Assembly (NCBI GenBank): GCA_020851635.1
Contig: JADZCJ010000022.1
Span: forward strand, 1 to 64,000
Reading direction: 5' to 3'
Source of the DNA: Anaerolineae bacterium
GTDB lineage: Bacteria > Chloroflexota > Anaerolineae > UBA4142 > SHND01
DNA length: 64,000 bases
Shown: one piece after another, positions 149-58,372 of the stretch
Layout: each line of letters begins with the position of its first letter
Position numbering within the stretch: the stretch's first letter is position 1
Made by a program: the position numbers and the translations under genes
The notes under the pieces: model-generated
What the model was told of the DNA's origin: nothing
What the model saw: the letters and a program-made list of their open reading frames with translations, nothing else
The model's database searches: none

Positions 149-242
149 GGGGGTAGTTCTGTCCCGGTGGGCGGCGCGGTCTTCAAAATCGTTGCGAGGT
201 GGTTGTGCCATCTTGGGTGGGTTCGACTCCCATCTACTCCCG
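149..242 (+). tRNA. selC: tRNA-Sec (selenocysteine tRNA, anticodon TCA)
   Basis: This is a selenocysteine tRNA that reads UGA during selenoprotein synthesis. The acceptor stem is 8 bp (149-156 with 234-241, one G-T pair). The D stem is 6 bp with a 4-base loop (159-164 with 169-174). The anticodon loop CTTCAAA (181-187) carries TCA at 183-185 on a 5-bp stem. A long variable arm follows, then a T arm TGGG-TTCGACT-CCCA. The 8-bp acceptor, 6-bp D stem and long variable arm are the diagnostic set for bacterial tRNA-Sec. The discriminator base is G242 and CCA is not encoded. No selA, selB or selD lies in the window. Confidence 0.93.
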
Positions 243-46223: not shown

Positions 46224-46273
46224 TTTTTCAATCCCTTGCGGGGCTGGCAAAACAGCTTTTGCAACTGCATCCT

Positions 46274-46927
46274 ATGTTCGAACCGCCGCTCGTCACCCTC
46301 GTCCTGGTCATTCTGCTCGCGCTGTTGCTTTGGTATTTGCTCGGGATGCAGTTCAACATTCGCCGGGGCCGCCGCGCCCTGCGCTGGCTGGAGCAGGGAT
46401 TACCTATCGTAGGTGAAAAAGCGGCATTGAACTGGTCGGGCGTTTCTCACGTCGAAATTCAGGTCCACAAAGCCAAAGAGCCGTTTCGCGCCGCCGATGT
46501 GATCATAGACCTTGTGCCGCGACAAGCTCCATTTTGGTGGCTCTGGAAAAAGAACGCGAGCGGGCGAGACACGGTCATTGTCCGCGCCCAACTTCGCACT
46601 GCGCCGCGCTTTGATCTCGTTTCGCACAGTCCGCATGTCCGCGCCGACGAACAATTGAAACGGTCAGGCACGGGTCAATGGACTGCCGTCCAGGGAGGTC
46701 TGGCGAACGCGATGGTCGCCGATATTCGCGGCAATATCTCGCCGTATGCGGTCAACCGCCTGATCATGCAAACCACCCTCGAGGGGATGACGCTGACCCG
46801 GCTCGTCGTGCACCGCTCCGCGCCAAATCTCGAAGTCCACTATCTCTTGCCTCAATTCGAACAAGTCTCGTCCCAGCGCGTTTTTGTCGGCATTCACCAA
46901 TTGGGCGAAGAGGTGGCACAGGTCTAG
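46274..46927 (+). CDS. Membrane-anchored hypothetical protein
   Basis: The protein has 217 residues and no recognised family. A single N-terminal membrane helix (PLVTLVLVILLALLLWYLLG) is followed by a cytoplasmic basic patch (RRGRRALRWLEQG) and a soluble domain of mixed strands. ATG 46274 is preferred to an in-frame TTG at 46259. Its last codon is followed by TAG of a CTAG sequence that flanks a 94-bp inverted-repeat element, so the element abuts the stop codon. It is possible that the original C-terminus was longer. Confidence 0.7.
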   Translation: MFEPPLVTLVLVILLALLLWYLLGMQFNIRRGRRALRWLEQGLPIVGEKAALNWSGVSHVEIQVHKAKEPFRAADVIIDLVPRQAPFWWLWKKNASGRDTVIVRAQLRTAPRFDLVSHSPHVRADEQLKRSGTGQWTAVQGGLANAMVADIRGNISPYAVNRLIMQTTLEGMTLTRLVVHRSAPNLEVHYLLPQFEQVSSQRVFVGIHQLGEEVAQV

Positions 46928-47021
46928 TAGTGCAACAACATGAGGTTGCGGGGTTGAGTATTGAGTTTTATAACTCGCGTGCCATCACTTGACTTGGCAA
47001 TTTCATCATGTTGTTGCACTA
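46928..47021. mobile_element. 94-bp miniature inverted-repeat element, copy 1
   Basis: Perfect 16-bp terminal inverted repeats TAGTGCAACAACATGA (46928-46943) and complement (47006-47021) enclose a 62-bp core with a small inner dyad (GAGTT-TTAT-AACTC). It matches copy 2 at 55496 at 83 of 94 positions. CTAG lies immediately left (46924-46927) and also ends the element on the right (47019-47022), compatible with a CTAG target duplication. It carries no ORF, so it would be a non-autonomous (MITE-type) element. Confidence 0.85.
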
Positions 47022-47041
47022 GTCCAAACGCTCTGTCCCCG

Positions 47042-55449: not shown

Positions 55450-55495
55450 GGAAAAGTGAGACTGGAGACTTGGCTCTCCGGTCTTGTATCTCTAG

Positions 55496-55589
55496 TAGTG
55501 CAACAACATGAGATTGCATGGTGGAGTATCCAGTTTTATAACTCGCGCGCCAGCGCATGACTCGGCAATTTCATCATGTTGTTGCACTA
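55496..55589. mobile_element. 94-bp miniature inverted-repeat element, copy 2
   Basis: It has the same 94-bp length and the same perfect 16-bp terminal repeats as copy 1 (46928): TAGTGCAACAACATGA at 55496-55511 and its complement at 55574-55589. Eleven differences lie in the core only. CTAG flanks it on the left (55492-55495) and spans its right end (55587-55590). The TAG stop of lpdA (minus strand, 55589-55587) is supplied by the right end of the element. Confidence 0.85.
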
Positions 55590-56978
55590 GATATGCAGCG
55601 CCTCGCCCATCGTCGCCAGCGCCGCTTCACCAATGACCTCGGTCAGCGTCGGGTGTGCGTGAATCGCGTGCGCGATTTCGAGCGGCGTCAATTCGTTGTT
55701 GATTGCAAGTGAGAGTTCGCCTGTCAGATCCGTCACTTCGGGTCCCACCATGTGCACGCCCAGGATTTCACCAAACTTTTTGTCCGAATAGATGCGAATA
55801 AACCCTTCATACTCGCTCAGCGCCAGGGCTTTGCCATTCGCAATGAACGGAAACTCGCCAATGTTGTATTCAATGCCCGCTTCCTGGACCTGCTGCTCGG
55901 TCTTGCCAAACGAAGCAACCTGAGGATTCGAATATGTGCAGCGGGGGACTGCATCATAGTTGATCGGGCGCACCTCGCGCCCCGCCATATGCTCAATTGC
56001 CAGCACCCCCTGCGCCGATGCGACGTGAGCGAGCGCCAGTTTCATGTTCACATCGCCAATCGCATAAACGTTCGGCACATTCGTCTGCGAATAATCATTC
56101 ACGTCAATTGCCCCGCGCGTGGTTTTGACGCCCAGACCCTCCAAACCCATGTCATTGGTGTTGGGCGTCACCCCGATGGCGACCAGCACTTTATCCGCCG
56201 TCACCTGTTCCGTCCCCTGTGCGGTCTTGACATGCAGGACGGTCTTGCCGTCCGCTTTTTCGGCGCGTTCGACCATCGCGCCCGTCTTGAAATTGATGCC
56301 CGCCTTTTGGAAGCTCTTTTCGACGACGCCGCTGATCTTGGCATCTTCCTTGGGCAGCAAGTGCGGCAGTCCTTCCAACACGGTCACGTCTGCTCCGTAA
56401 GAGCGATAGATCGTGGCAAACTCGCAGCCGATGGCGCTCGCGCCAACGATTACAATCGGATTCGGCACGGTTTTGAGCTCGAGCGCTTCGCGCGAACTAA
56501 TCACATTCACCTCGTCGAATTCCAGACCGGGGATCGTCCGCGCGCGTGCGCCTGTGGCGATGATGATATGCTTGCCCGACAGTTTCTGTCCGCCGCCCTT
56601 GAGTTCGACTTGATTTTTGCCGTTGAGCACGCCGGTGTCCATAAAAACGTCAATCTTGTTTTTCTTCATCAAGAAATTGACGCCGCGGACGAGGCGAGCA
56701 GAAACTTGCCGACTGCGCGCTTGCGCCGACGCATAATCCAGCGTGTATGTGCCGTTGATGGTGATGCCCCACGCTTTGGCATCGGCAAAATTGCGCGCTA
56801 TATGCGCGTTCGCCAGGAGCGCCTTTGATGGAATGCACCCAATGTTCAAACAGACGCCTCCCAGCCATTCACGTTCGACGACTGCGGTTTTCATCCCCAA
56901 CTGCGCGGCGCGAATCGCGGCAACATAACCACCCGGTCCACCGCCGATAATAATCACGTCGTACTGTGTGTCTGCCAT
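55587..56978 (-). CDS. lpdA: Dihydrolipoamide dehydrogenase (E3)
   Basis: This flavoprotein re-oxidises dihydrolipoyl groups of the 2-oxoacid dehydrogenase complexes with NAD+. It has 463 residues. The FAD motif is VIIIGGGPGGYVAAIRAAQLGMKTAVVE, the redox-active disulfide GGVCLNIGCIPSKALL, the NAD motif IVGASAIGCEFATIYRSYG, and the C-terminal active-site pair HAHPTLTE. ATG 56978 is used (GGAG 8 bases upstream). It probably serves the pdhABC complex located 4 kb downstream on the same strand. The stop codon TAG coincides with a CTAG end of a miniature element. Confidence 0.95.
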   Translation of the reverse strand: MADTQYDVIIIGGGPGGYVAAIRAAQLGMKTAVVEREWLGGVCLNIGCIPSKALLANAHIARNFADAKAWGITINGTYTLDYASAQARSRQVSARLVRGVNFLMKKNKIDVFMDTGVLNGKNQVELKGGGQKLSGKHIIIATGARARTIPGLEFDEVNVISSREALELKTVPNPIVIVGASAIGCEFATIYRSYGADVTVLEGLPHLLPKEDAKISGVVEKSFQKAGINFKTGAMVERAEKADGKTVLHVKTAQGTEQVTADKVLVAIGVTPNTNDMGLEGLGVKTTRGAIDVNDYSQTNVPNVYAIGDVNMKLALAHVASAQGVLAIEHMAGREVRPINYDAVPRCTYSNPQVASFGKTEQQVQEAGIEYNIGEFPFIANGKALALSEYEGFIRIYSDKKFGEILGVHMVGPEVTDLTGELSLAINNELTPLEIAHAIHAHPTLTEVIGEAALATMGEALHI

Positions 56979-57031
56979 TCTGGTTGCTCCGTAAATTTGA
57001 ATTGACTGTGCAGCATGCAAGCCGCGCTCGC

Positions 57032-58372
57032 TCAACAGTTGCTCACCCGAAACAACTGCCAATCACCCGGCACACCTTTGAGCGAATGCGCGCCGCGCGG
57101 CTCGAACTCGATGCCGGAACCCGCCACCAGGTCCTTGACCGTGCTCGAAACCCAAACCTGGCTGGCTCCTGCGTTGGACATGACACGCGCGGCAATATGA
57201 ATCGCAACTCCCGCAATTTCCTTGCCGATAATTTCATATTCGCCCGTATGCAGCCCAACACGAATTTCGATTCCCAATTCCCGAACGGCGTTGCGCATGG
57301 CACAACCGCAGCGGACTGCGCGCGCAGGACCATCAAATGTTGCAAGCAAGCCGTCGCCCGTTGTATTGACTTCATGTCCGCGAAATCGAACAAGCTCGTT
57401 TCGCAGGATCTGAAAATATCTTGCTATCACTCCCGCCCAACGCATATTGCCCAGCTCCTGCGCCCGCGGTGTAGAACCGACAATGTCGGTAAAAAGTAAT
57501 GTGCCGAGCACCCGATCAAGCAAAATCTCTGCGCGTTCTCCGGTCAAAAATTCCTGGACCTCGTCCAACACGGCACCCGAATTGCCAACCCACGGAAAAT
57601 GGTCGCGTCCGGGCAATTCAACGAATCTTGCGTTGGGGATGCGCGATGCAATGTATCTGCCCTCCTCAATCCTGGCATCCATATCATCCTTGCGGTTCAT
57701 CACCAGCGTAGGGACGCGAATGGTCGGCAAAATCTCTCGGATATCAATTTCCGTGTTCATCTTGGCAAGCGCTAATGCATCGCTTGGGCTTGCGCCCCGG
57801 CGCAGGTAGCTTGCCCACCATCGCACAAAACTCTCATCATTGCTCATGCTTGGAGCAACCGTATCCAGACCAACTGCACTGCCCCACCCCCCCAAAATGT
57901 CGTCAAAGAATTTCTGCCGTTCTTCCGGCGTTGGCGCCCAGGGATAATCCGGCGCCCAGACTCGTTTGGCAAAACAACCAAACGTGACGAGCGCTGTTGT
58001 TCGATGGGGGTAGGTCGCGGCAAACAACACCACCATGTTGCCGCCTTCGGAATGTCCAAACAGCGCAGCTCGTTCCGAGCCAACCGCCTCCATCACAGCA
58101 CGCACATCGTCCATCCGTTGTTCCAACGTCGGCAGGTCGGTCACCGAGACCTTGTCAGAGAGTCCCGTTCCGCGCTTGTCAAATAGAATGAGACGCGAAA
58201 AAGAGGCGAGCCGCTCGAGAAATCGCGCGTGGCTCGGGTCTTCCCACATCATCTCGATATTCGACACCCAACCGGAGACAAACACCAGATCAAACGGACC
58301 CTTGCCGACCACTTGATAGGCAATATTCACGTCGCCACTGCGTGCGTATCGGGTCTCGGGTACGATAGCCAC
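57032..58372 (-). CDS. Alpha/beta-hydrolase fused to a class III nucleotide cyclase
   Basis: This is a 446-residue two-domain protein. An alpha/beta-hydrolase domain covers about 10-275 with the nucleophile motif G-H-S108-E-G-G and a catalytic His region LPGRDHFPWVGNS. A class III adenylate/guanylate cyclase domain follows from about 285 to 440, with the two metal-binding Asp residues in LLFTDIVGST and NTTGDGLLATFDGP. The hydrolase would sense or bind a small molecule and control cAMP or cGMP production. Such fusions are known in mycobacteria and Chloroflexota, but the ligand is not established. It lies 6 bp after the OmpR-type regulator. Confidence 0.85.
   Translation of the reverse strand: MAIVPETRYARSGDVNIAYQVVGKGPFDLVFVSGWVSNIEMMWEDPSHARFLERLASFSRLILFDKRGTGLSDKVSVTDLPTLEQRMDDVRAVMEAVGSERAALFGHSEGGNMVVLFAATYPHRTTALVTFGCFAKRVWAPDYPWAPTPEERQKFFDDILGGWGSAVGLDTVAPSMSNDESFVRWWASYLRRGASPSDALALAKMNTEIDIREILPTIRVPTLVMNRKDDMDARIEEGRYIASRIPNARFVELPGRDHFPWVGNSGAVLDEVQEFLTGERAEILLDRVLGTLLFTDIVGSTPRAQELGNMRWAGVIARYFQILRNELVRFRGHEVNTTGDGLLATFDGPARAVRCGCAMRNAVRELGIEIRVGLHTGEYEIIGKEIAGVAIHIAARVMSNAGASQVWVSSTVKDLVAGSGIEFEPRGAHSLKGVPGDWQLFRVSNC

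Follow-up and report, generated by a model that had tools for sequence, protein, structure and literature searches.

The systems closest to the repeat described here come from other bacterial groups. RUP of pneumococcus, associated with IS630-Spn1, is a 107-bp non-coding repeat of about 108 copies with IS630-like ends, which has TA at its insertion point and often lies within or adjoining insertion sequences (PMC2229807). MITEPsy1 of Pseudomonas syringae is 100 nt long with 18-nt arms, and duplicates 4 nt on insertion at its target, CTAG or YTAA (PMC3189936). IS630 and ISY100, of the IS630/Tc1/mariner group, duplicate TA (PMC2170065), and IS630 prefers TA within CTAG according to the title of Tenzen and Ohtsubo (1991) as it stands in the reference list of PMC2170065. 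A further pneumococcal repeat, BOX, contains the gene's stop codon in 36 of its 58 overlaps, and strong signs of truncation are lacking (PMC3049150). In each of these respects the systems resemble family A, a repeat of an Anaerolineae genome. We propose that family A is very probably a MITE derived from an IS630-family insertion sequence and moved to CTAG by an IS630-type transposase. Seen directly are its spread in many copies, the empty sites, the flanking CTAGs and, in the same genome, a CTAG-bordered IS630-family element with matching ends.

Two copies in the window and a family across the genome

The window, meaning the whole stretch of 64,000 nucleotides that was analysed, holds two repeats of 94 bp whose 16-bp arms are perfect and which have CTAG on either side (46924-47022 and 55492-55590 with their borders; Table 1), just as the earlier note had described. 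No other perfect 16-bp inverted repeat with a loop of 30-120 bp exists anywhere in the window. The arm TAGTGCAACAACATGA occurs exactly at four places, where shuffled sequences lead one to expect 0.43 matches at up to three mismatches and reached four in 0 of 100 shuffles. Each copy has one CTAG ahead of its left arm and a second straddling its right edge; relative to these CTAGs the perfect arms are displaced by 3 bases (left CTAG-TAG-TGCA, right TGCA-CTAG). In a 94-bp copy, the unit enclosed by the two CTAGs measures 91 bp, the longer figure including the right CTA, and the distance from CTAG to the inner TTGC, read from the sequence, is 22 bases on both sides alike.

Table 1. Positions of the family A copies, the adjoining open reading frames (ORFs) and a tRNA in the window
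Feature	Positions	Strand	Remark
Selenocysteine tRNA	149-241		RF01852, 69.5 bits
222-aa ORF	46259-46927	+	hydrophobic N-terminal stretch; stops at left CTAG of copy 1
Left CTAG border, copy 1	46924-46927	+	TAG at 46925-46927 ends the 222-aa ORF
94-bp repeat, copy 1	46928-47021		
Family A element, copy 1	46928-47018	+	91 bp between CTAGs
Left arm TAGTGCAACAACATGA, copy 1	46928-46943	+	
Right arm, copy 1	47006-47021	-	extends 3 bases into right CTAG
Right CTAG border, copy 1	47019-47022	+	
Left CTAG border, copy 2	55492-55495	+	
94-bp repeat, copy 2	55496-55589		
Family A element, copy 2	55496-55586	+	91 bp between CTAGs
Left arm, copy 2	55496-55511	+	
Right arm, copy 2	55574-55589	-	
Right CTAG border, copy 2	55587-55590	+	supplies TAG stop of the minus-strand ORF
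491-aa ORF	55587-57062	-	lipoamide-dehydrogenase-like (lpd-like), named by eye without a family search; stop is right CTAG of copy 2

Across the genome (5.8 Mb, 144 contigs), the arm with at most two mismatches is found 59 times per strand, against 15 and 17 for a reversed control pattern. A BLAST search with copy 1 gave at least 41 long matches (40 of 80 first-look candidates scored), and pairing of arms in the retrieved loci resolved 48 copies, most of 94 bp with variants of 109-112 bp. A sequence-only model gave at least 101 matches at E <= 0.01, corresponding to at least 68 distinct places carrying family A, counted by eye above the first opposite-strand duplicate among the listed matches. 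Family A is short and non-coding (94 bp with 16-bp arms and without room for a transposase) and is dispersed in many copies at unrelated sites of its own genome, as a MITE should be. The earlier note had suspected a non-autonomous element and had proposed a search of the genome and its relatives for arm pairs; the multiple copies uphold the suspicion, and the search returned many more of them in the same genome.

The set of 48 copies was chosen via the arms, and arm conservation within it is thus partly selected. CTAG flanks both sides in 17 copies, the left side in 21 and the right side in 31. Outside the arms, conservation computed on the 44 copies in normal orientation is confined to the left C-T-A-G (89, 75, 80 and 75%) and the right G (80%). 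Four copies (L003, L027, L033 and L055) have the extra TAG on the opposite side. A short palindrome at L057:2001-2026 is made up of two end pieces from family A placed back to back (TAGCGCAACAACATGATGTTGCACTA) and is perhaps a collapsed copy.

Exact arm pairs were present in this genome alone of 99 (0 of the 98 others), and no stretch in the genome_contigs and viral_contigs databases contained them. The family A model gave weak matches (E 1e-4 to 1e-2) in five other genomes of 40 (G005, G007, G014, G016 and G019). Eight full-length relatives, four in G007, two in G019 and one each in G014 and G016, have the family A plan and the same 3-base shift; CTAG stands at both ends in five of them and one end is altered in three. 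Related miniatures with this shift between arm and CTAG occur in four other genera. A pattern of the family A plan retrieved five stretches, four in an Anaerolinea sp. MAG and one in a groundwater Chloroflexi MAG.

Empty sites and gene ends

The CTAG target with apparent duplication, which the earlier note had deduced from the borders, is corroborated by a sister species (G005) that lacks the element at both window sites. At copy 2 this species reads ATCTCTAAATATGCAGCG where the window genome has ATCT-CTAG-element-CTAG-ATATGCAGCG, a clean empty site; the same site in G004 and G003 has diverged too far to be read. At copy 1, where the alignment is only fair to the right of the insertion site, G005 has GCGCAAGT-ATAG-TCGCACTCGC and the window genome GCACAGGT-CTAG-element-CTAG-TCCAAACGC. 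G005 therefore provides the empty sites with target duplication expected of a MITE, clean at copy 2 and fair at copy 1. Orthologues were compared at eight sites plus that of copy 1. Those at L039 (G005, G004 and G002) and L032 (G003) span the site without CTAG, and a readable empty target was recovered at two of the four sites with spanning orthologues. We also rejected a 7-bp target, CTAGTAG, in which TA would be duplicated, both empty sites being about 3 bases too short.

At copy 1 the left CTAG does form the TAG stop of the 222-aa ORF, the gene that the earlier note had read as a membrane protein. The second copy likewise sits on a stop codon, that of the lpd-like ORF, which the first reading had missed. 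The 222-aa ORF ends in GEEVAQV*, and its orthologues end at the same final residue (GEEIAQV* with TAG in G005, GEEVAQV* with TAA in G003). The lpd-like ORF ends in ALHI* at the right CTAG of copy 2, with the same final residues in G005 (TAG) and in G004 and G003 (TGA). Since the orthologues stop at the same residues, the insertions preserved existing stops and made none. Hence, of two possibilities raised earlier, tolerance of the element where CTAG overlaps a stop agrees with both window copies, which adjoin stops of whole genes, and creation of stop codons by insertion has to be abandoned at both sites. An element that inserts at a gene end restores the stop, TAG being part of CTAG, and the protein stays whole.

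No tetranucleotide is rarer in the window than CTAG, which has 10 sites against about 35 expected from trinucleotides and 241 from base composition, and element borders make up four of the 10. Both window elements, and none of the six other CTAG sites, lie at the end of a long frame (at least 150 codons). Genome-wide, an open frame of this length ends directly beside 15 of 41 family A copies, compared with 11 of 65 other CTAG sites (Fisher p 0.036, a single uncorrected test on an element-centred sample); the 41 are those of the 48 copies with at least 450 bp on each side, and the controls are CTAG sites in loci of the same genome. By a looser measure, which is not a stop test, 930 of 4000 randomly drawn positions fell at the end of such an open stretch. 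Thus, any genome-wide preference of family A for stop codons is weak. Separately, GGCC in the window is more depleted relative to expectation (0.09) than CTAG (0.29), perhaps a restriction signature.

The transposase family and its rivals

A search of the genome for DDE_3 (PF13358) returned seven places. At L171 (contig 107) the element is about 1.17 kb long and bordered by CTAG at either end; its two frames score 122.3 bits (C half) and 73.6 bits (N half) against NF033545 (IS630; cut-off 100) and exceed the cut-offs for both HTH_32 and DDE_3. Its ends agree with those of family A at 23 of 30 and 21 of 30 positions, where the best other CTAG flank outside family A and L171, among 375 distinct flanks in loci of this genome, reached 17 of 30. 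The family A consensus used for this scoring was built from 31 of the 48 copies, with L016, L054, L058 and mirrored copies excluded. The likeness continues inward beyond the arms (GCGGGGTTGAG), and family A consequently has ends in common with an IS630-family element. The hunt for a transposase with the same ends, advised in the earlier note, therefore leads to an IS630-family element whose ends match best without being identical; the accompanying hint at an IS5-type element was right about a CTAG-targeting transposon and probably wrong about the family.

The C-half protein of L171 has matches in 17 of 60 genomes, its own included (E <= 1e-10), and a relative in G005 (L177) is 88% identical with the same ends and one internal TAG. 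When borders of IS630 relatives were compared, CTAG was found on both in L177, L178, L179, L183, L185 and L194, and at one end or none in the remaining loci. No full element with ends identical to those of family A (TAGTGCAACA / TGCAACAACA) was found; those of L171 depart from them at 7-9 of 30 bases, and the 3-base shift of the arms against CTAG in family A is absent from the IS630 relatives. Two further counts tell against an IS630 origin: no more than 21 of 48 copies retain an intact left CTAG, and sister species are without CTAG at two of the four spanned sites. The L171 transposase requires a frame change, and the element may therefore be inactive. The change falls at L171:1380-1402, at an A-run followed by CAAACT(T/C)AAACCTTGG, a motif kept in four IS630 relatives (L177, L178 and L179 among them), and this may possibly be a -1 programmed frameshift site.

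The 4-bp CTAG repeats are in themselves compatible with a MITE of another DDE family that makes a true 4-bp duplication, whether IS5-type, as proposed for MITEPsy1, which duplicates CTAG or YTAA (PMC3189936), or IS701-type (YTAR). An IS701-type insertion sequence in the same genome uses CTAG, CTAA or TTAG, and its end TACTACAACGTTA agrees with TGCAACAACATGA at 9 of 13 bases by hand count. Nevertheless, we regard such an origin as unlikely: YTAR duplications other than CTAG (CTAA, TTAG or TTAA), matched on both sides, occur in 0 of 48 copies, and over 30 bases the IS701-type end attains only 12 agreements against 23 and 21 for the IS630 element. A REPIN-like repeat, mobilized by a single-strand HUH/RAYT transposase that recognizes CTAG as its tetranucleotide, would explain a palindrome of about 94 bp with a constant tetranucleotide at its foot, but is highly improbable given that the ends match an IS630 DDE element.

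The faintest prospect of all is a selected RNA or 3'-end element (hairpin terminator or stabilizer) retained after stop codons: the predicted hairpin is strong (z -7.4, + strand), a stop precedes both window copies and pair counts exceed column shuffles (covariation score 0.075 vs 0.064, 0/500), but the RNAalifold covariation term is only -0.12 kcal/mol over the 31 of 48 copies aligned (A1), one arm pair holds five of the eight double changes, which touch four of 31 stem pairs, an Rfam match is absent at the element, empty sites exist in a sister species, and only 15 of 41 copies abut the stop of a long frame. Matching arms are expected of any transposon. An RNA function of family A thus finds little support.

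For an IS630-derived MITE, the course of events can be outlined. An IS630-family element would lose its inside, giving rise to the family A miniature; an IS630-type transposase would then bind both ends of the miniature, excise it and insert it at CTAG. With joining at TA and duplication of TA, the known chemistry of IS630, the copy would come to lie between two CTAGs. We infer that the L171 transposase or a close relative may have acted in trans in this way. TA sits inside CTAG on both sides, which renders a duplicated TA and a duplicated CTAG inseparable by sequence; the unit duplicated would be TA, not all four bases.

Neighbouring elements and known systems

Another mobile element touches 21 of the 48 family A copies. 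In 15 cases this is family B; the other six adjoin an IS701-type insertion sequence, IS-Y, IS-Z, another family A copy or a repeat of about 190 bp. Family B is a 92-bp element, CTAG-CAGGTTGTCGGAG ... CTCCGACAACCTG-CTAG, with perfect 14-bp arms (e.g. L091:658-755), which with at most two mismatches occur 97 and 93 times against 29 and 34 for the control. It gives at least 22 near-full BLAST matches, in its own genome only among 40 (22 of 86 candidates scored there), and its strictness for CTAG equals or exceeds that of family A. A parent insertion sequence of family B was not found. A B-like end lies immediately right of the L171 element.

The IS701-type insertion sequence, with ends TACTACAACGTTACTTTG and CTAG, CTAA or TTAG flanks, stands at about a dozen contig ends (L028:1-127, L134:1-127 and others), and its body is absent from the assembly. 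Its assignment runs through a homologue in G017 that is 71% identical over 35 residues and itself scores 201.5 bits against NF033540. IS-Y is multi-copy, has ends TGCATC(A/T)TTAACAAAG and adjoins CTAG in every copy seen (L126, L127, L129, L130 and L145); two short IS-Y peptides have no Pfam match. A repeat of at least 190 bp ending in CTACACGGAATAG, present at about 35 places in the genome, adjoins two family A copies (L054 and L022, left flank). Contigs that break about 127 bp off family A were considered as a sign of presence/absence polymorphism, and this was rejected, the flanks being ends of multi-copy repeats, mostly IS-like.

It is tempting to speculate, tentatively and with more doubt than confidence, that CTAG-using elements (families A and B, IS630- and IS701-type) keep renewing places, at gene ends and along the edges of elements, where they can land safely. 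Each insertion would add a second CTAG, so that the families would land on one another's edges. Natural CTAGs that tolerate insertion would often be stop codons, and a CTAGTAG end would present two in-frame stops. Family A offers a simple test of whether a rare CTAG target steers small elements to stops and to one another's edges, and it illustrates an insertion that leaves the gene intact. Furthermore, a little-studied group of bacteria gains an IS630-derived MITE family whose likely parent type is present in the same genome. Within the literature searched, nothing united MITE, IS630 and Chloroflexi, and among the papers listed none placed a miniature inverted-repeat element with CTAG target site duplication in Chloroflexi.

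Set against the known systems, family A differs from RUP in sequence and host and in its longer arms, those of RUP being given as 9 bp; its fixed CTAG borders and gene-end sites have no counterpart in the available part of the RUP account (PMC2229807). MITEPsy1, in contrast, is tied to the IS5-type ISPsy2, accepts YTAA and is unrelated in sequence by eye (PMC3189936). BOX is larger, modular and without CTAG borders, whereas the stops at family A pre-existed in the target. IS630 and ISY100 are autonomous, and family A has no transposase gene. Family A is therefore best filed as a new IS630-derived MITE family of a kind already known, exemplified by RUP with IS630-Spn1 and, for CTAG, by MITEPsy1.
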